Position numbers and translations under genes: made by a program
Shown here: one piece after another, positions 1,815 through 52,819 of the stretch
Numbering within the stretch: position 1 is the stretch's first letter
Layout: every line of letters begins with the position of its first letter
DNA from: Opitutus sp.
GTDB taxonomy: Bacteria; Verrucomicrobiota; Verrucomicrobiia; Opitutales; Opitutaceae
NCBI GenBank assembly: GCA_024998815.1
Contig: JACEUQ010000002.1
Coordinates: 1,316,501-1,380,500, forward strand
Length of the DNA stretch: 64,000 nt
Reading direction: 5' to 3'
Notes under the pieces: model-generated
What the model saw: the letters and a program-made list of their open reading frames with translations, nothing else
Database searches by the model: none
What the model was told of the DNA's origin: nothing

Positions 1815-2180
1815 ATGCCCGTCCTTTTTGTTTACGGCACTCTCAAGCGCGGGTGCAAAAACCACCACCACATCGCCGATCAACGCTTCCTTGATCAAGC
1901 GCGCACCGTTCCCGGCTACGCACTTTACGATTTGGGCGATTACCCCGGCTTGGTGGCCGACTCCAGCGACACAACTGGCGTGACCGGTGAACTCTGGGAG
2001 GTCGACGAGGCCGCCCTCGCCCGACTGGACGAATTCGAAGGCGTGGCCGAAGGGCTCTATCAGCGGCAACGCGTGGAGTTAATGGATACCGTTAATCCCA
2101 TCCAAGCGCACACCTACCTGTATGCGCGTGACCCCGGCCAGCGCCGGATCGGGACAACGTGGCACGATGCCACCGCTTGA
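1815..2180 (+). CDS. Gamma-glutamylcyclotransferase-like (YtfP/AIG2) protein
   Basis: A 121-residue member of the GGCT-like fold. The substrate-loop motif VYGTLKRG is at residues 5-12 and the catalytic-type Glu lies in RLDEFEGV near residue 78. The family includes gamma-glutamylamine cyclotransferases that release 5-oxoproline; the substrate here is unknown. The stop codon abuts the convergent stop of pgpA with no spacer (TGA followed directly by TCA), so no room remains for a separate terminator. Confidence 0.82.
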   Translation: MPVLFVYGTLKRGCKNHHHIADQRFLDQARTVPGYALYDLGDYPGLVADSSDTTGVTGELWEVDEAALARLDEFEGVAEGLYQRQRVELMDTVNPIQAHTYLYARDPGQRRIGTTWHDATA

Positions 2181-2705
2181 TCACGCCCCGAACTGCACCC
2201 AAGCGCAAAACGCCAGATGCATCGTTGCACAGGCCGCCAGCGCCGCAGCGGTATCGTCCACCGTCACCCCCCAACCACCAGGTAAATCCTGCAGTTTTTT
2301 AATCCCAAACGGCTTGGCGATGTCGTAGAGCCGAAACAGCGCAAATCCTGCCAAAAACACCGCCCAGTTGGGCACCACCTCGGCAAGACGCGTCCAGCCG
2401 AGAAAGCAAAGCGGCATGGCGACAAACTCATCGAGCACGATTTTGCCCGGATCGCGTTCGCCGAGCCGGAACTCGGCCTCGCCGCACAGCGCCACCGAGA
2501 AATAAAATCCGGCCGCGCTCAACACCAGCACGCCGACGTCGCCCATGCGGCCCGCGAACAGCGTGGAAAAATACAACAGACCCGCCACCGAGCCCCACGT
2601 GCCCGGGGCCTTGCGCATGCGCCCAACCGGACCCACCGTCGCGCAGGAAAGCACCCAACTCGTCGGCAGAAACCGCGGCCAGATCGGTTGTTTGAATACG
2701 CTCAT
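2181..2705 (-). CDS. pgpA: Phosphatidylglycerophosphatase A
   Basis: Dephosphorylates phosphatidylglycerol phosphate to phosphatidylglycerol at the inner membrane. The protein has 174 residues with the PgpA blocks KAPGTWGS, DPGKIVLDEFV (metal-binding acidic residues) and RLYDIAKPFGI followed by PGGWGVTVDD. Several hydrophobic segments occur (about 45-80 and 120-140). The start overlaps the pgsA stop by four bases, so the two consecutive enzymes of phosphatidylglycerol synthesis are translationally coupled. Confidence 0.92.
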   Translation of the reverse strand: MSVFKQPIWPRFLPTSWVLSCATVGPVGRMRKAPGTWGSVAGLLYFSTLFAGRMGDVGVLVLSAAGFYFSVALCGEAEFRLGERDPGKIVLDEFVAMPLCFLGWTRLAEVVPNWAVFLAGFALFRLYDIAKPFGIKKLQDLPGGWGVTVDDTAAALAACATMHLAFCAWVQFGA

Positions 2706-3289
2706 GTCCGCTCGTCAAAAATCACCGCGCGGTACTTCACGATATAGTCCCAGCCCGAGCGCACCGTGAAATAAACCCCCAGCACAAACAGCCCGAGCCC
2801 CACATTGTGAATCACCTCGGAATAGGCCGAAAAATCGAACGCCAGCCGGGGAGCGATGTCGTTTTCCAACATCGGTACGAACAACAGAAAACCCACCGCG
2901 ATGAGCTGGGTGAGGGTCTTGGTTTTCCCACCACGCTCGGCGGAGACCACCACGCCCTTGGCGGCGGCCATCATCCGCATCCCTGAAATCAAAAACTCGC
3001 GGCACAGCACGATCAGCACCCAGTAAATCGGCACCGCGCCCTGTTCGACGAAGGCGATCATGATGCCGAGGACAAAAATCTTGTCCGTGAGCGCATCCAT
3101 GAACTTGCCGAAGATTGAGATCAGGTTGCGCTTGCGGGCGATATAGCCGTCCACCCAGTCGCCGATCGCAGCGGCGATGAACAACCAGAAGGTCAGCGTG
3201 GCGGCCCAACTCCACGACTGGTTCATCAGCCAGACCACCAAAAACATCATCGGAATGCGCGAAAGGGTGATGATGTTAGGTAAATTCAT
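2702..3289 (-). CDS. pgsA: CDP-diacylglycerol-glycerol-3-phosphate 3-phosphatidyltransferase
   Basis: Membrane enzyme making phosphatidylglycerol phosphate. I place the start at the ATG at 3289 (MNLPNIITLSRIP), the conserved N-terminus of the family. The frame runs open far upstream but that part overlaps coaD on the other strand and does not look like protein. The protein has 195 residues. The CDP-alcohol phosphotransferase motif is visible as GDWVDGYIAR then FGKFMDALTDK, with the expected aspartates. Four or more membrane segments. First gene of the pgsA-pgpA pair, divergent from coaD. Confidence 0.93.
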   Translation of the reverse strand: MNLPNIITLSRIPMMFLVVWLMNQSWSWAATLTFWLFIAAAIGDWVDGYIARKRNLISIFGKFMDALTDKIFVLGIMIAFVEQGAVPIYWVLIVLCREFLISGMRMMAAAKGVVVSAERGGKTKTLTQLIAVGFLLFVPMLENDIAPRLAFDFSAYSEVIHNVGLGLFVLGVYFTVRSGWDYIVKYRAVIFDERT

Positions 3290-3400
3290 GGCGTGTGAGT
3301 CGGGCCGAAAGACAGGGCTGCCCCAGCCCAAAGGCAACCCCGGAAACGCCTCGATTTGGTTCTCGCCCCTCGCCGCGCCACTTCGATTATCGACGGGCTT

Positions 3401-3886
3401 ATGCGTCACTGCATTTATCCCGGCACCTTCGATCCCCTGACCAACGGCCACCTCGACGTGCTCGACCGCGCGACCCGGCTGTTTGACCGCATCACCGTCG
3501 CGATCGCCCGCAACCCGGGCAAGGGCCCGCTGTTCACCCCTGAACAGCGCCTCGAACTGGTTCAGGCCAACATCGCCCAATACCCGCACGTCACCGCTGT
3601 TCTCTTTGACGGCCTGCTTGTCGAGTTCGCAATCGCCCAGAAGGCCGACGCACTCATTCGTGGCCTGCGCGCGCTCTCCGACTTCGAGTTTGAGTTCAAC
3701 ATGGCGCTGATGAACCGCCACCTGCAGCCCAAGATCGAGACGATCTTCGTCATGCCGCACGAGCAGTACAGCTACACCAGCTCCTCACTTGTGAAACAGG
3801 TGGCTCGCTACGGCGGCGACATCGCCCATTTCGTGCCGGCCAACGTCGCCGCCGCACTCGCCACCGCCTTCCCCCTCCCCGCCTAG
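3401..3886 (+). CDS. coaD: Phosphopantetheine adenylyltransferase
   Basis: Catalyses the penultimate step of coenzyme A synthesis. The start at 3401 gives the usual 161 residues beginning MRHCIYPGTFDPLTNGH, which carries the nucleotidyltransferase TxGH motif. The C-terminal family block YTSSSLVKQVARYGGDI is present. An in-frame upstream start at 3356 would add 15 residues with no family counterpart. The gene is divergent from pgsA and is followed after 45 bases by a perfect palindrome and the efflux operon. Confidence 0.95.
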   Translation: MRHCIYPGTFDPLTNGHLDVLDRATRLFDRITVAIARNPGKGPLFTPEQRLELVQANIAQYPHVTAVLFDGLLVEFAIAQKADALIRGLRALSDFEFEFNMALMNRHLQPKIETIFVMPHEQYSYTSSSLVKQVARYGGDIAHFVPANVAAALATAFPLPA

Positions 3887-3931
3887 CACCCGCCCCGCCA
3901 CCCCGCGTACCCCACCGTGTCACCTGCTACA

Positions 3932-3952
3932 GTGTCACCTAATAGGTGACAC
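3932..3952. repeat. 21-bp palindrome, copy 1 (intergenic)
   Basis: Two perfectly complementary 10-base arms, GTGTCACCTA and TAGGTGACAC, around a single A/T base. The same 21 bases (reverse orientation of the central base) occur at 12244-12264 inside folK-pabB. A partial arm (GTGTCACCT) also lies just upstream at 3917. Could be an operator for the efflux operon starting at 3997 or a mobile palindromic unit; its presence in a coding region favours the latter. Confidence 0.85.
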
Positions 3953-3996
3953 TTGACCTCCCGCCCACGCTGCCCCCCGCCTCACTCGTTATCCTC

Positions 3997-5355
3997 ATGG
4001 CCAAATCCCGTTCACTCAAAATCTGGCTCACCCTCATCGCCGTCGCCGCCATCGCCGGTGGCGCGTACTACTACCTACAGGGGCGCTCCGGCCCGAAACC
4101 CGAGTTCGCCACCGCCAAGATCAGCCGCAGCGAGATCATCCAATCGGTCACCGCCACCGGCACCCTCCAGCCCGTCACCACCGTCGAAATCAGTTCGCAG
4201 ATTTCCGGCCTGATCCAAGAGGTAAAGGTGGATTACAACTCTAAGGTGAAACAGGGCGACCTGCTCGCCCGCATCGACCCCGCCACCTACCAGGTGCGCC
4301 TGAGCTCCGCCAAGGCCGAGCTGGCCAACACCCGCGCCAACTACCAACTGGTCAAACTCAACACCGAGCGCACCCGCGCCTTGCGAGCCCAGGATCTCGT
4401 CTCGCAACAGGAACTCGACCAAGCCGAAGCCCAGCTCACCCAGGCCGAAGCCCAGTTGCAAATCCGCCAGTCCTCCGTGCAAACTACCGAAGTCGACTTG
4501 GCCCGCTGCAATCTTTACGCCCCGATCGACGGCCTCATTTTGGACCGCGTCGCAGAGGTCGGAAAAACCGTCGCCGCCAGCCTCAACGCGCCGCGCCTCT
4601 TCACCCTCGCCGCCGACCTCACCCAGATGCAAATCGAGGCCGCCGTGTCCGAGGGCGACATCGGTACGGTCGAGGTGGGGCAAAGCGTCAACTTCACCGT
4701 AGATGCCTACCCCAACCGCCAATTTCACGGTCAGGTTTCCCAGATCCGCAACGCGCCCATCAACGTGCAAAGCGTGGTCAGTTACATCGCGATCATTCAG
4801 GTCAAAAACGACGACCTGCTGCTCAAGCCGGGCATGACCGCCAACGTCTCGATCATCATTGCGCGCAAGGAAGACACCCTGCGCATCGCCAACAGCGCGC
4901 TGCGCGTGCGCATCCCTGAACAGCTCCTGCCCGACACCCCGGCGGCGGCGCCCGAACCAAGCAAAACCACCCAGCCCGCCTCCCGCGACCAGATCCGCCA
5001 GCTCATGACCGAGGCGGGCGCCGGCAGCAACTCGCGCCGCATGGCCCCCGAGGTGCGCGGCCGCCTGATCCAGTTGGCCAAAGAGCGCGGCCTGGAGCTG
5101 CCCGCCCGCCTGCTGCGCAACAGCGATGACACCGAGTCCAACGGCCCGGTCACGCGCACCGTGTACAAGCTCGGCGGCACCTCCGCCGCCCCTGAAGTGA
5201 TTCCCGTGGTCATCAAAGTCGGCATCACCGACGGCAGCGCCACCGAGGTGATCGCGGGCTTGGAGGAGGGCGACGCGGTCATCACCAGCGCCTACCTGCC
5301 GGCCTCCGGCAACGGCGCGGCCAACCCCTTCGGCGGCTCCTCCCAACGGCGTTAA
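3997..5355 (+). CDS. Periplasmic adaptor (membrane fusion) subunit, MacA-like
   Basis: A 452-residue adaptor of a tripartite efflux pump that links the inner-membrane MacB-type transporter to an outer-membrane channel. I choose ATG 3997 (MAKSRSLKIW), which places a single transmembrane anchor at residues 7-25; an upstream GTG at 3946 lies in the palindrome and is unlikely. The biotinyl-lipoyl domain (ISSQISGLIQEVKVDYNSKV), a long coiled-coil hairpin (residues 100-165) and beta-barrel segments follow. An inserted, basic segment at about 300-385 is unusual for MacA. Next gene starts 14 bases on; no TolC-like gene is nearby. Confidence 0.87.
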   Translation: MAKSRSLKIWLTLIAVAAIAGGAYYYLQGRSGPKPEFATAKISRSEIIQSVTATGTLQPVTTVEISSQISGLIQEVKVDYNSKVKQGDLLARIDPATYQVRLSSAKAELANTRANYQLVKLNTERTRALRAQDLVSQQELDQAEAQLTQAEAQLQIRQSSVQTTEVDLARCNLYAPIDGLILDRVAEVGKTVAASLNAPRLFTLAADLTQMQIEAAVSEGDIGTVEVGQSVNFTVDAYPNRQFHGQVSQIRNAPINVQSVVSYIAIIQVKNDDLLLKPGMTANVSIIIARKEDTLRIANSALRVRIPEQLLPDTPAAAPEPSKTTQPASRDQIRQLMTEAGAGSNSRRMAPEVRGRLIQLAKERGLELPARLLRNSDDTESNGPVTRTVYKLGGTSAAPEVIPVVIKVGITDGSATEVIAGLEEGDAVITSAYLPASGNGAANPFGGSSQRR

Positions 5356-5369
5356 GCGCCCTCTCCGCC

Positions 5370-6139
5370 ATGGACGCCCCCATCGTCAAACTGGATAACA
5401 TCCACAAGATCTACACCAGCGGCGAGGTCGAGGTGCACGCGGTGCGCGGCATTTCCCTGGAGATCCAGAAGGGCGAGTTCATTGCCATCATGGGCTCGTC
5501 GGGCTCAGGCAAGTCCACGCTCATGAACACCCTGGGCTGCCTCGACCGGCCGACGCGCGGCACCTACCAACTCGACGGCATCAACGTCTCCGAACTCGAC
5601 CGCAACCAGCGCGCCGACATCCGCAACCAGAAGCTCGGGTTTGTCTTTCAGGGGTTCAACCTGCTCTCGCGCACCACCGCCCTCGAGAACGTCGAGCTGC
5701 CCATGCTCTACGCCCCGCAGCGCATCTCGGCCGAGGAGATGCGCGAACGCGCGATGCACTCCTTGGAAATCGTAGGCTTGGCCGCGCGCCACGACCACTT
5801 GCCCAACCAGCTCTCGGGCGGCCAACAACAGCGCGTCGCCATTGCCCGCGCCTTGGTTAACCGCCCACAACTGCTCCTCGCCGACGAGCCCACGGGTAAC
5901 CTCGATACCAAAACCTCCGTCGAAGTCATGGGGGTTTTCCAAAAACTCAACGACGCCGGCATCACCATTGTCATGGTCACCCACGAGCTCGACATCGCCC
6001 ACTACTGCAAACGCAACCTGATCGTGCGCGACGGGCTGGTCGTGCGCGACGAGCTGGTCGCAAACCGCTCGATCGCCGCCGAAGAGATGAAAAAACACCT
6101 CGCCGCCGAGGCCGCCGCCAAACTCATTTCCGCCGCACC

Positions 6140-47672: not shown

Positions 47673-47816
47673 AACTTCAGAAGCGTCGCCGAACTTAGTC
47701 AGGCCATTGACGCTTTCGTCGCCGCCTACCTGCCCAATGCCAAGCCGTTCAAGTGGCGCAAGCGCGAGGTCAAGGGAAGCCAACTCAGAAATACTATCAT
47801 TAATCTACGCAATTAA
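47673..47816 (+). pseudogene. IS630-type transposase C-terminal remnant
   Basis: Forty-seven codons in frame to a TAA: NFRSVAELSQAIDAFVAAYL then NAKPFKWRKREV. This matches the C-terminal end of IS630/Tc1-type transposases (SVxEL..AI..F...YN..AKPF.W). Upstream part of the gene is missing. Its end is the point where the group II intron is cut, so this remnant or the element it came from probably removed the intron's 3' end. Confidence 0.75.
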
Positions 47817-49299
47817 GCACTAGCTCCATCCGCACTTTGTCGCGTAACTTGGCCAGACTTTTCGCACTGGGTTCCACGTGCGGATACCTTCGTTTGCTCT
47901 TCATGCCTTGCCGCCATGCGACGGAAAAACCGAGGAACTCAAAGCCTTCCTTTCGTGTATCCACCAGTCGGGTTTTCTCTTCGTTGAGCTTTAACTTACG
48001 TGCCTCCAGCCACCGTTTCAGTCGCGTTTGCAGCCCCGCCCCTTGACCCGGTTTGCACAGGATCAGGAGGTCGTCGGCGTAACGCACCATCGTCGGCTTT
48101 TGTTCGCACTTCTCATTCACCGCATGATCGAGGTCGTTGAGGTAGAGGTTCGCCAGCAGAGGCGATATAACTCCGCCTTGTGGCGTGCCACACCGGTTCG
48201 CGCTCACCTTGCGGCACCCCGTGTCCCGGTCCTCTTCCACGATGGGTGCGCGCAGCCACGTTTTTATTAAACGCAACACGCTCCCATCGCTCACCCGTTT
48301 GGCCACCAATTGCAGGAGTTCGCGGTGCGGGATCATATCGAAGTAGCTCGATAAATCCGCGTCCACCACCTCCACCTTTCCGCTCAGCAGGGCCTCTTTA
48401 ACTTTGTCCATCGCCTGATGGGTCCGACGTTTCGGCCGGTAGGCGTAGGAATGGTCATGGAAGTCCGCCTCTAGGATTGGCTGCAACACGATCACCGCCG
48501 CGCTTTGCACCACCCGGTCTTTCACCGTAGGGATGCCCAGCGCACGACGTTTGGTCCTGGCCTGATCCTTCCATATATAGACGCGCAGGACCGGACTGGG
48601 TCGGTAGGTTTTCGTTCGCATTTCCTCCGCCAGCGCAAGCAGCCATGCCGCCCGATAGGCTTCGTTCTTTGCGAGCGTTTCCACCTCGAACCCGTCCACT
48701 CCCGGCACGCCGTCATTGGCGATCACCTGATCGAGCGCATCCGACAGAATGTCCTGCCGATACAGCTCTCCATACAAACTATAGAACCGCCAATGCGGCT
48801 CCGCTTTTGCTTTCCGATATAGCACACGTTGCAGCTTCCGAACCTTCGGTGACGTTTTTATCCAGAGTTCATCACCCCAGCCATCGTCGGGTCCTTTGCC
48901 GCTCTGTGATGCGTGGGAACAAGTGCCCTCCCTTCGCTCCCCGGCGGTTTTAATGTCCGCTAGATCATCACTACTATGGAGGTCTCCGACTCCTGCCACG
49001 GCCCGTCCGGCCTTACGAGGTTTTGCCGCGCTTGTGCCGGTGGTTGAGGCATCGCAAGACGCCCCACCGCCGCAGGTCTCACCACTTAACCTAACGACCT
49101 TTCCCACCCCGCCGCCCCCGCTGACTCCGCCGACGTGTTGATCGGAAATCAACGATTTAGGTCCTACGTCTTTGCGAGACTGCCTTTTCCGATCCTTGCA
49201 GTCTTCACCGTTCAGGTAGCGGCTGGACTCGTCGGTTGTTTCGGTAACGGAGCTCATTGGATGGGGTTCACCTTCGTTGCGGCTGACTGGTTCGGGCAC
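47800..49299 (-). CDS. ltrA: Group II intron reverse transcriptase/maturase, C-terminally truncated
   Basis: A 499-residue frame. After a long N-terminal part (about 150 residues, partly intron RNA domain sequence read as protein) the RT domain is clear: RRALGIPTVKDRVVQ, SYAYRPKRRTHQAM, DADLSSYFDMIPH, GTPQGGVISPLLANLYLND and the catalytic MVRYADDLLILC near 417. It stops after AKLRDKVRMEL with six foreign residues (VLNCVD), where intact proteins continue through the maturase (X) and HNH endonuclease domains. Therefore probably inactive in splicing support. Confidence 0.9.
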   Translation of the reverse strand: MPEPVSRNEGEPHPMSSVTETTDESSRYLNGEDCKDRKRQSRKDVGPKSLISDQHVGGVSGGGGVGKVVRLSGETCGGGASCDASTTGTSAAKPRKAGRAVAGVGDLHSSDDLADIKTAGERREGTCSHASQSGKGPDDGWGDELWIKTSPKVRKLQRVLYRKAKAEPHWRFYSLYGELYRQDILSDALDQVIANDGVPGVDGFEVETLAKNEAYRAAWLLALAEEMRTKTYRPSPVLRVYIWKDQARTKRRALGIPTVKDRVVQSAAVIVLQPILEADFHDHSYAYRPKRRTHQAMDKVKEALLSGKVEVVDADLSSYFDMIPHRELLQLVAKRVSDGSVLRLIKTWLRAPIVEEDRDTGCRKVSANRCGTPQGGVISPLLANLYLNDLDHAVNEKCEQKPTMVRYADDLLILCKPGQGAGLQTRLKRWLEARKLKLNEEKTRLVDTRKEGFEFLGFSVAWRQGMKSKRRYPHVEPSAKSLAKLRDKVRMELVLNCVD

Positions 49300-49433: not shown

Positions 49434-49475
49434 AGTGTGAGCGGCGGCGCGAACACCGTCTATTTCTGGCGGTTA
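49434..49475. repeat. IS21 terminal inverted repeat, istB side
   Basis: AGTGTGAGCGGCG followed by a divergent 10-base middle and CGTCTATTTCTGGCGGTTA; matches the other terminus in 35 of 42 bases in inverted orientation. Confidence 0.88.
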
Positions 49476-49536
49476 CAAAATCACCTGTCGTAAAAGCCGA
49501 TGACCGGCCCCGCCAGGGGCCGATCATCAGGCCCGG

Positions 49537-50304
49537 TCAGCTTGCAGGTTCGTCGGCCAGGCGGTCTTTCATGCGGTAGGATTTGCCCTCGATGACGACG
49601 GTCTGAGCGCGGTGCAGCAGGCGGTCCAGGATCGCCGCGGTGATGCCAGCGTCGTTGTTAAAGATCCCTGCCCAGTGTTTGTAGGCCTTGTTGGTGGTGA
49701 CGATCAGCGAGCCGCGTTCGTAGCGTTGGCTGACGATCTGGAAGAGCAGGTCGGCCCCCGACTTGTCGAGCGGCAGGTAGCCGACCTCATCGAGCACGAG
49801 CACCGCAGGGGTCATGTAACGCTTCAACTCGGCTTGCAACCGGTGCAGGGACTGGGCGGTGACCAAAGCGTTGATCGCGTCCACCGCCGTCGTAAACAGC
49901 ACCGTGTAACCCGCCTGGCAGGCCGCGTAGCCCAACGCGCTCGCGAGATGTGTCTTCCCAAGCCCCACACCACCGCAAAACACCGCGTTGGTGCGCTCCT
50001 TGACAAAGCCCAGTTCGAAGAGGTGCCGCACCTGCGCTTCGTTCAACTCCTTGGGCCAGTCCCACTGGAACTGGTCGACGGTTTTCTTGACCGGGAAGCG
50101 CGCCGCCTGGATACGCCGCTCCAGCGCCCGGATCTGGCGGTCCTGGGTCTCGGCCTGCACCAGTCGGCGTAAAAATTCGGCGTGCGAACAGCGCGCCTTG
50201 GCCGCCTCGGCGGTCAGTTCGCCGTGGTGACGCAACAGGTAACCGAGTTTCAGATACTTGAGCTGGTCTTTTAATAAATCGGGTTTTTCGGGTTCTGTTT
50301 TCAT
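49537..50304 (-). CDS. istB: IS21 helper ATPase IstB
   Basis: A 255-residue AAA+ transposition helper. Walker A FCGGVGLGKTHLASALG near 112, Walker B VLVLDEVGYLPLDKSGADLL near 172, and the sensor region SLIVTTNKAYKHWAGIF; C-terminal ILDRLLHRAQTVVIEG. The start overlaps the istA stop by four bases, as usual in IS21. Confidence 0.95.
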   Translation of the reverse strand: MKTEPEKPDLLKDQLKYLKLGYLLRHHGELTAEAAKARCSHAEFLRRLVQAETQDRQIRALERRIQAARFPVKKTVDQFQWDWPKELNEAQVRHLFELGFVKERTNAVFCGGVGLGKTHLASALGYAACQAGYTVLFTTAVDAINALVTAQSLHRLQAELKRYMTPAVLVLDEVGYLPLDKSGADLLFQIVSQRYERGSLIVTTNKAYKHWAGIFNNDAGITAAILDRLLHRAQTVVIEGKSYRMKDRLADEPAS

Positions 50305-51767
50305 TGGGTATAGGGGCTTAAATCCGGGGGACGCAGTTCGAGTTCCAGTGCGGCCAACGCGTCGGCGCGGGTGAGGTGGATCGGCCCGGCTTGCGGCAAG
50401 GCCCGCGCGCGTTGTTCGAGCAAGTTGAGGATGTAATCGCTGGAGTAGGCGCCGAGTTCATGGGCGCTTTCGATCGCCCGGCCGACTGCCTCCGTTCCAT
50501 ACAGGGCCACCAAACCCACGATAGTCGCCAGGTGGTGTCCCGCGTTGAGCCGGCGCTCCTCCAGCCCCCGTTGGTAGGCGGGTGCCGCCGGGCTCAGTTC
50601 CAAAAACCGTAGCCGCAGGCGCTGCCGCGCCCCCTGCCGTTTGCGCTCCTCGAGTTCGCGCACATGCTCGGGGTTTTCCACATCGGCGCGGCGGGCAAAA
50701 CTGCGGGCATGCTCGGCCACCAGGGTGCGGTCCGCATAAAACCTCACCTGCGCCCCCTCGATCTGCGCGGTGAGTAGCGCCCCGGCAAACTTCGTGGGCA
50801 CCGAGTAGCGGTTCGTTTCGATACTCACCCGGCACCGCCGCGACGCCCGCACGCTTAAGGTGCGCACCGCCGGACTGGCCACCGGGTTAAGCGGCAGGAG
50901 CGCAGCGCGCTCCTCGGGCAGCCGGTCCACCGGCCGGCCCTGGGTTTCAGCGTGAACGCGCACGTTGGCCACCGTTTCCAGCCACAAGCTGGCGGCCGGC
51001 CCCAGCTCGGTAAACCCGTTCATCTGCCGCCCGCCAAGGAAGCTTTTTTTCACGTAACCCACCGCGTTTTCCACCATGCCCTTGGACTGCGGATGCCCCG
51101 GCCCGCACGCTTTTATCGTAAACCCGTAGTGCCGGGCAAAGTCCAGGTACTGGGCGTTGTACACCGGGTCGGTCCCGGGCACATGCGAGAGGACGGCCGT
51201 CTTGCAGTTGTCCACCATCACCTCGCGCGGCACCCCGCCGAGTTTTTCAAAGGCGCGCCGGTGACAGCCCAGCCACCACTCCTGGCCCTGCCCGAGGGTA
51301 AATTCCACATGCAGGAACCGGCTGTACCCCAAAACCATGACGAAAAAACTTAAAGCCCGCCGGGTGCCGTCCACCTCCACCGCGCCAAAACTGCCCCAGT
51401 CCACCTGCGCGGTCTGGCCGGGGGCAAACTTGAGGGTAAGAAACGCCTCCAGGTTCCTCGGCCGCACCCGCCGCACGTAGTCTTTCAAAATTGAATACCC
51501 GCCCGTGTACCCCCGCTCGCGCACCTTTTGCCAGAGCTGCATGGCGGTGAACGGATGGGCCTCCAGCCACCGCGCGATCGCCGGCTTGTGCACGTCGAGC
51601 TTGCTTGGCCTAGGCACCTGCGCGGCCTGGCTGCGCACGTACTTTTCCTGCGCCTGCCAGCGCCTCACCGTCTGCACGTGCAACTGGAGCGAGCGGGCGA
51701 TTTGCGGCGCACTGTGACCGGCCGCCTCCGCCTGTTTTATCCGGCAATACAGTTCGTAATCGATCAC
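50301..51767 (-). CDS. istA: IS21 transposase IstA
   Basis: A 488-residue transposase: N-terminal helix-turn-helix (HSAPQIARSLQLHVQTVRRW, residues 18-37), then the DDE core with AQVDWGSFGAVEVDG, VMVDNCKTAVL and the Glu in PQSKGMVENAVGYVKK, and a C-terminal beta-barrel region with SIETNRYSVP. Complete and apparently functional. Four-base overlaps with both neighbours. Confidence 0.95.
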   Translation of the reverse strand: MIDYELYCRIKQAEAAGHSAPQIARSLQLHVQTVRRWQAQEKYVRSQAAQVPRPSKLDVHKPAIARWLEAHPFTAMQLWQKVRERGYTGGYSILKDYVRRVRPRNLEAFLTLKFAPGQTAQVDWGSFGAVEVDGTRRALSFFVMVLGYSRFLHVEFTLGQGQEWWLGCHRRAFEKLGGVPREVMVDNCKTAVLSHVPGTDPVYNAQYLDFARHYGFTIKACGPGHPQSKGMVENAVGYVKKSFLGGRQMNGFTELGPAASLWLETVANVRVHAETQGRPVDRLPEERAALLPLNPVASPAVRTLSVRASRRCRVSIETNRYSVPTKFAGALLTAQIEGAQVRFYADRTLVAEHARSFARRADVENPEHVRELEERKRQGARQRLRLRFLELSPAAPAYQRGLEERRLNAGHHLATIVGLVALYGTEAVGRAIESAHELGAYSSDYILNLLEQRARALPQAGPIHLTRADALAALELELRPPDLSPYTQ

Positions 51768-52123
51768 GCGCCCACCTCCCGGCTCGGCGGCGGCGTTGCC
51801 GCCAGCGTGTGCGTTGGCCTGCCCCGGTCCAAGGAGAGCACCTGGTAAAGTGGCGCGGCGTAGGCGATCACCCCGGCCTCGATTAACTGCCGGCGCGCCT
51901 CGACCAGGCCGTCCTCGCTGAGCGTGAGCAGCCGGGCCAGGGTGCGCGTGGCGTAGTAACTCAGCCCGTCGGCGTCGCCCACGGTGACCAGGACCAGATA
52001 GAGGCCCCAGGCGGGGGCACTGGCCCGCCCCAGGTAATTGCCCCGCACCAGCCGGTGGTCCAGCCAGCTAAACTGGGCCGGCGTGCGCCGGAGTTGTTCG
52101 CGATCGATCGGTTGTTTTTGCAT
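51764..52123 (-). CDS. IS21-associated winged-helix-like accessory protein
   Basis: A 119-residue protein whose stop overlaps istA by four bases. The central region (YYATRTLARLLTLSEDGLVE followed by RRQLIEAGVIAY) has the helix-turn-helix plus wing pattern of replication-initiator-like DNA-binding domains: strand, two helices, recognition helix and a hydrophobic beta turn. Not one of the classical IS21 proteins. It lies inside the terminal repeats, so it moves with the element; a DNA-binding or copy-control role is an inference. Confidence 0.7.
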   Translation of the reverse strand: MQKQPIDREQLRRTPAQFSWLDHRLVRGNYLGRASAPAWGLYLVLVTVGDADGLSYYATRTLARLLTLSEDGLVEARRQLIEAGVIAYAAPLYQVLSLDRGRPTHTLAATPPPSREVGA

Positions 52124-52625
52124 AATCGGGCGGCTGGACGTCGATGCCCAGGATCACCCGCCCCCGGGATTGCAGGTGTCGCAGCATGGGTTCGAGGTCC
52201 TCTTGTAACGTCACTCCGGCGAACTGCGCGATAAGCCCCACGAGCACAGGGTTTTGCGACTCCCATCTGTCTTGTAACGGCACGCAGGGATTCGGTAACG
52301 CCACCTCGGCGACCGGCTCGGCTTTAGGCTGGTGCACAACGGATTGCGTAGTTGGGATGTCTTGTAACGCCACCCGCCGTCGCGGCCCCCTCCGCCTTGA
52401 GTACCCCGGATTGGCCTTCCGCCACTCCTGCACCCGTTGGACATTTTCTGGGCCTTTCCAGTGGTCGAGGTTCTCCGGCTTCGCCAACCATTTGGCCTGA
52501 CTGGCCGCCCGGCTCGCCCGTCGGCATCCCGGCTTCCCGCAGTAGCGCTGACGCTCGCGGTTATGCGCGTCGGGCAGAAAGAAATCGACACAGTGCAAAC
52601 ACTTGCGTGAACCGGTTGGATGCAT
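52068..52625 (-). CDS. IS21-associated cysteine-rich accessory protein
   Basis: A 185-residue protein. The N-terminus has a zinc-finger-like arrangement CLHC then YCGKPGCRR and an aromatic segment ending KANPGYSRRRG. The C-terminal half holds repeated V-x-LQD words (VALQDI, VPLQDR, VTLQED) that reflect a 90-base repetition of a TTACAAGA motif in the DNA. Overlaps the winged-helix gene by 56 bases. Function unknown; DNA- or RNA-binding is plausible. Confidence 0.66.
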   Translation of the reverse strand: MHPTGSRKCLHCVDFFLPDAHNRERQRYCGKPGCRRASRAASQAKWLAKPENLDHWKGPENVQRVQEWRKANPGYSRRRGPRRRVALQDIPTTQSVVHQPKAEPVAEVALPNPCVPLQDRWESQNPVLVGLIAQFAGVTLQEDLEPMLRHLQSRGRVILGIDVQPPDYAKTTDRSRTTPAHAGPV

Positions 52626-52777
52626 CGCTGTGCATCCGCCAAGCGTCCCGCCGGTTCAATCTCCACCCATTCGCACCCCTCATATCCCCAGCCGGACAGG
52701 GAAGAAAACCCACCCACGGAAGAAGAGTATTACTCTTTTTAAGGGGAAGAAGATCCACCGAAGAAGAAGTGCATTCC

Positions 52778-52819
52778 TAACCGCCAGAAATAGACGCTTT
52801 CCCGCTCGCCGCTCACACT
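52778..52819. repeat. IS21 terminal inverted repeat, accessory-gene side
   Basis: Inverted partner of 49434-49475; reads TAACCGCCAGAAATAGACG inward end first and finishes CGCCGCTCACACT at the outer edge. Confidence 0.88.

Follow-up and report, generated by a model that had tools for sequence, protein, structure and literature searches.

What are two extra genes doing in an insertion sequence of the IS21 family, whose published members are described as having two genes only (PMC10122671)? The question is raised by an element in the window (the whole stretch of 64,000 nucleotides of Opitutus sp. DNA that was analysed). An earlier note, made from the sequence alone, had described an IS21 element with 42-bp terminal repeats that carries a Cys-rich and a winged-helix-like gene in addition to istA and istB, and the protein families, the repeats and the genomic copies bear this out. 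The more remarkable part of the element had been missed at the time: the Cys-rich gene contains a repeat array, probably a switch controlling when the element moves. IS21 is a textbook two-gene family, and a branch in several phyla with two more conserved genes and an embedded array of DNA sites would change that picture.

Anatomy of the element

The whole IS21-type element measures 3382 bp (49436..52817, minus strand), and its genes follow each other on that strand in the order orfA-orfB-istA-istB. Its ends, TGTGAG...CTCACA (termini TGTGAGCGGCG...CGCCGCTCACA), were set from the genomic copies and their flanks: the other copies align only to bases 2-3 and 3384-3385 of the query. The span given earlier (49434-52819) thus did contain the element but included two chance-matching flanking bases on each side. 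The terminal inverted repeats of 42 bp are located at 49436..49477 (istB side) and 52776..52817 (orfA side); they match in 33 of 42 bases when aligned without gaps, and at 91% in the piece aligned by BLAST.

The helper ATPase is encoded by istB (49537..50304, minus strand; NF038214 with 261.6 bits against a cut-off of 200, E 6e-78) and the DDE transposase by istA (50301..51767, minus strand, GTG start; NF033546 with 291.8 bits against a cut-off of 160, E 7e-87). Before istA come orfB (51764..52123, minus strand), for a winged-helix DNA-binding-type protein of 119 aa, and orfA (52068..52625, minus strand), for a zinc-finger-like protein of 185 aa. All genes overlap serially: orfA and orfB by 56 nt, orfB and istA by 4 nt, and istA and istB by 4 nt. 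The claim that the accessory genes overlap each other and istA is therefore correct.

Several features place the element in the IS21 family, namely IstA (NF033546), IstB (NF038214) with a gene overlapping istA, inverted repeats and a short target duplication. With IS21, IS5376, IS100 and others it shares the IstA/IstB families, the TG...CA ends, the long imperfect inverted repeats and the istA/istB start-stop overlap. It differs from them by the presence of orfA and orfB before istA, the element-specific site array in orfA and the 7-bp duplication; the usual IS21 target duplication is 4, 5 or 8 bp. A description as 'istA and istB only' does not apply, as orfA and orfB are present in every full-length copy and in the relatives, but such a two-gene content is the usual description of IS21 and not a strict criterion. 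In the IS66 family, too, the transposase gene is preceded by a pair of small accessory genes. The likeness consists of these two small preceding genes, whereas the transposase is unrelated; neither orfA nor orfB gave an IS66 family match, and we know of no such array in that family.

Neither orfA nor orfB reaches a Pfam or NCBIfam cut-off. For OrfB, 11 of 38 relatives nonetheless match the HTH_36 family (best E 4e-9), and the predicted structure is a winged helix (pTM 0.75). Its matches to PDB folds are weak (E about 1e-2) and concern wHTH proteins including CAP, CodY and RepA-type initiators (4pql, 5kbj and 4pt7, among many other winged helices); no sequence match to a RepA_N initiator was found. 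Model and fold matches agree with the predicted winged-helix-like nature of this protein. Structure prediction, which had been recommended for both accessory proteins, is less informative for OrfA: only the first 75 residues are modelled with high confidence, the fold search gave no significant match, and no Pfam or PDB family was above threshold. Four Cys of OrfA are conserved: C9, C29 and C34 are invariant and C12 is near-invariant.

A reverse transcriptase gene (RVT_1, E 7e-35; window 47803-49299, minus strand), group II intron-like by sequence, ends approximately 140 bp from the element.

Copies in the Opitutus sp. genome

That the element is real and not a chance arrangement follows from the 47 near-identical copies of orfA in the genome, the 7-bp duplications in most of them and the gene order kept in relatives. 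Besides these copies there is one divergent homologue. Full-length copies of 3382 bp are present in 39 of the 47 places fetched besides the window (40 including the window); several others are interrupted or changed in length (L068, L069, L070 and L072) and a few places are single ends. Both extra genes occur in all full-length copies. The earlier note had named elements with the same termini but without the accessory genes, in the same genome, as the observation that would mark the pair as a chance passenger. No such element was found: the only two istA copies that lack orfA (L023 and L024) are each truncated beside another DDE transposase.

A target duplication of 6-8 bp, most commonly 7 bp, was observed in 29 of 48 fetched places. 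The window copy has no duplication. Some copies lacking one pair crosswise (L053/L065, L054/L072 and L060/L062), and duplications split in this manner are a sign of recombination between IS copies by which replicons were rearranged. A comparison of the genomic copies and their flanks revealed no strong target-site preference. Among the roles that had been suggested for the gene pair, a regulatory role fits best. At one and the same site of a repeated sequence, two copies (L038 and L039) are inserted in opposite directions.

An IS21 subgroup with two additional genes

A search for IS21 elements with the same two genes upstream of istA, as had been proposed, yields relatives in which the gene order is kept at 43-76% IstA identity, although MAG contigs among them may be misassembled. 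The order orfA-orfB-istA is seen across the host phylum, on Caballeronia plasmids, in one contig of the viral collection and in 52 of 80 genome_contigs loci. The genes had been called translationally linked, and this is in agreement with the conserved overlap between orfB and istA: of 51 relatives, 37 have one of 4 nt and another 13 have one of 8 or 14 nt.

In the IstA tree, where the nearest named relatives point to Verrucomicrobiota as the host phylum, elements bearing orfA and/or orfB group together. The sole exception is L248, a distant IS21 with orfA, which acquired this gene separately. Gene orfB is dispensable: it is absent from L177, L184, L215 and L228, whose IS21 elements keep orfA, and L184, L215 and L228 form one IstA clade. 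The farthest members are G083 (38%) and G040, where a divergent Cys-rich gene is still found before orfB. Both genes are absent from all sampled IS21s with an IstA at most 35% identical to that of the window (IS21, ISPsy4, ISPsy20, ISCfr8 and others). Together with the tree this upholds the idea of a distinct IS21 subgroup. The branch is widespread and apparently undescribed; we found no paper on the array motif or on IS21 accessory genes.

A repeat array inside orfA

The 3' half of orfA contains three copies of CGTTACAAGA on the minus strand: copy 1 at 52360..52369, copy 2 at 52270..52279 (90 bp from copy 1) and copy 3 at 52201..52210 (69 bp from copy 2). When the orfA of the window was shuffled 20000 times, a threefold 10-mer of any kind arose in 18 cases. 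The 69-bp spacing of the last two copies recurs in relatives, and three copies are present in 68 of 80 loci. A de novo search recovered an element-specific repeat of 9 or more bases, present three times in the same place, in 27 of 36 elements against 2 of 259 control windows taken from the same elements; in the other 9 of 36 the exact-repeat search gave no array. The array is missing from the orfA of one serine-type locus (L093), and degenerate or variant copies are found in L330 and some others. No enrichment of the motif was found outside orfA.

In most elements all copies share one frame and are translated as (A)LQD/E. The codons used are strongly fixed: in 27 orfA genes found by protein similarity alone, the Leu of the motif is TTA in 50 of 56 cases against 25 of 256 for other Leu (p 4e-32), and in the same set the Gln is CAA in 40 of 40 cases against 97 of 203 for other Gln. 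The codon before the motif is mostly NCG (GCG 29, ACG 5, CCG 3 and TCG 1) though the amino acid varies. Exact inverted copies of the motif are present in L202, L204, L252 and L214 (the latter also in another frame), where about 0.04 would be expected by chance (an estimate from 80 loci x 550 bp / 4^10). Copies inside one element share the motif variant of that element, and the motif itself changes between elements. Another element has GTTACGTGA instead of CGTTACAAGA, and L308 and L348 have three copies of a different motif, GATTGTAAAAGTAGAC, the last of which is out of frame at the orfA stop. Elements with a divergent OrfA show still other three-copy motifs in the same place, for example GTGTTACGTGATGAC and TCTTACGGGATA, one in mixed frames (GTTACTCGACAT) and one with a copy inverted (TGTGAGGTGAA).

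The fixed synonymous codons, the inverted, out-of-frame and post-stop copies, and the alternative motifs show that the array serves as a DNA signal. Computationally it is shown to be selected as double-stranded DNA, to be element-specific and to move with orfA between unrelated mobility machineries. Two other candidates were rejected: an RNA motif, as Rfam gave nothing and the inverted copies argue against single-strand recognition, and a part of the transposase-bound ends, as the termini of relatives lack the array.

Distribution of orfA and the array

The spaced motif pair is present in 9 of 388 genomes of the phylum, against 0 for the reversed control. Scanning genome_contigs (approximately 85,000 species genomes) gave at least 118 stretches that match the spaced motif. 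Among the matches listed, 79 of 80 fetched are located at an orfA homologue, and the orfA-linked ones span at least nine phyla by record title. The scan was made by DNA pattern, since the OrfA alignment is too divergent, which biases the set towards canonical motifs; a separate orfA set was gathered by protein similarity to offset this bias. Matches in viral contigs are mostly due to chance (2 of 25 are real).

OrfA is the only gene common to all contexts of the array. These contexts comprise IS21 elements with orfB or without it (L177, L184, L215 and L228), the unrelated IS21 branch of L248, a serine recombinase with two ParB/RepB-like genes (L025 in the own genome, L242 and L249; for L084 and L087 only the recombinase is within reach), three adjacent overlapping tyrosine recombinases (Phage_integrase) in L226, and, in L229, a long ORF of primase-like appearance that matches no Pfam family. 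Three overlapping tyrosine recombinase genes in a row, as in L226, are a trait of RIT elements (PMC3414803); the RIT and primase contexts are represented by one clear locus each. In the tree of OrfA, the forms linked to serine recombinases make up a single group (SH-aLRT 94) that sits within the IS21 forms.

A proposed control cassette

OrfA is the likeliest binder of the array because it is the only gene shared by all contexts. The distance between the last site and orfB is 85-91 bp (interquartile range), against 101-112 bp to istA where orfB is absent and 141 bp to the recombinase in L025. Since the array precedes the first mobility gene by some 90-140 bp in most contexts, it is most simply read as an operator or activator site; a sigma-70-like promoter was not found between array and orfB. 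We propose that a control cassette stands ahead of the mobility genes; it would consist of orfA and usually three element-specific sites in the 3' half of this gene. OrfA, predicted to bind these sites, would set the transcription of the mobility genes, the first of which starts about 90-140 bp past the last site in most contexts. As to the sign of the effect, a first guess would be autorepression with titration by copy number. OrfB, being coupled to istA translation, may act as a second, dispensable regulator or as a transposition helper. OrfA as the binder, the effect on transcription and its sign are what we infer here, and to the explanation as a whole (OrfA binds the array and controls the downstream mobility genes) we assign a probability of roughly 55%. 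A more tentative reading, which we hold at a little under even odds, is that orfA and the array form a portable cassette with its own evolving operator, recruited repeatedly by unrelated mobility machineries (two branches of IS21, serine and tyrosine).

Other explanations of the array have to be weighed against control by OrfA. Phage Mu, a DDE transposon with an IstA-like transposase, also has three internal sites near one end, and the array might be an internal transposition enhancer like O1-O3 of Mu, where OrfA and/or IstA help or block the end-joining complex. The position of the three sites within a few hundred bp from one end, their element-specificity and the Mu-type C-terminal domain of IstA would all suit such an enhancer. 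The likeness to the Mu operators and internal activation sequence lies in these three sites near one end; here, however, they are inside an unrelated zinc-finger-like gene, and array and orfA are also found with serine and tyrosine recombinases, which have no Mu-like complexes. We consider an enhancer unlikely for this reason. It is quite doubtful that OrfB or a host protein reads the array instead of OrfA. OrfB has a winged-helix model and weakly matches the fold of plasmid RepA-type initiators, which can bind iterons inside their own gene, and within IS21 elements the protein that binds the array could alternatively be OrfB or IstA. Nonetheless the array is kept in the absence of orfB (L177, L184, L215, L228 and L248) and in contexts other than IS21, and its sites vary from element to element, as those of a host factor would not.

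RepA_N plasmid initiators have repeated binding sites within the repA coding sequence, and iteron-like repeats inside a gene, the weak RepA-type fold match of OrfB and the ParB/RepB-like genes of the serine elements might together suggest that the array governs, in the manner of iterons, the copy number or replication of a circular intermediate formed by excision. We give this little credence: no initiator gene or origin features were identified, the array is in orfA and not in the winged-helix gene, OrfB is dispensable, and tight copy control is hard to reconcile with 40 full-length copies in the chromosome. Hardly credible at all is a mere LQD repeat at the protein level, or extra genes that are chance passengers. 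The copies of most elements do indeed share a frame and code for LQD or LQE, but their fixed synonymous codons do not fit a protein repeat, nor do the non-LQD motifs and the copies that are inverted, out of frame or after the stop; a gene order conserved across phyla does not fit passengers.

If the portable-cassette reading is correct, transposons would be regulated in a new way, by a self-contained, evolving protein/site pair at the head of many of them. The branch would offer a natural series of protein/site pairs for studying the evolution of DNA recognition, and makes it possible to examine directly how a transposon with dozens of copies regulates itself.

Related loci

Some loci with an orfA homologue deserve mention by themselves. 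In the own genome, L025 (C2:1561500-1567500) contains at 1946-5826 a second type of element: an orfA homologue in which the motif occurs twice, followed by the gene of a large serine recombinase and by two genes of ParB/RepB type; cross-talk of this locus with the IS21 copies is possible. Three Desulfobacula-type genomes share a variant orfA (L226 at 63-2960 on the minus strand, L224 and L243). In L097 the contig ends at an orfA fragment, which lies immediately after a gene similar to those of REP-associated tyrosine transposases. Finally, in both L229 and L099 the orfA homologue is followed by a long ORF that by eye resembles toprim/primase proteins.
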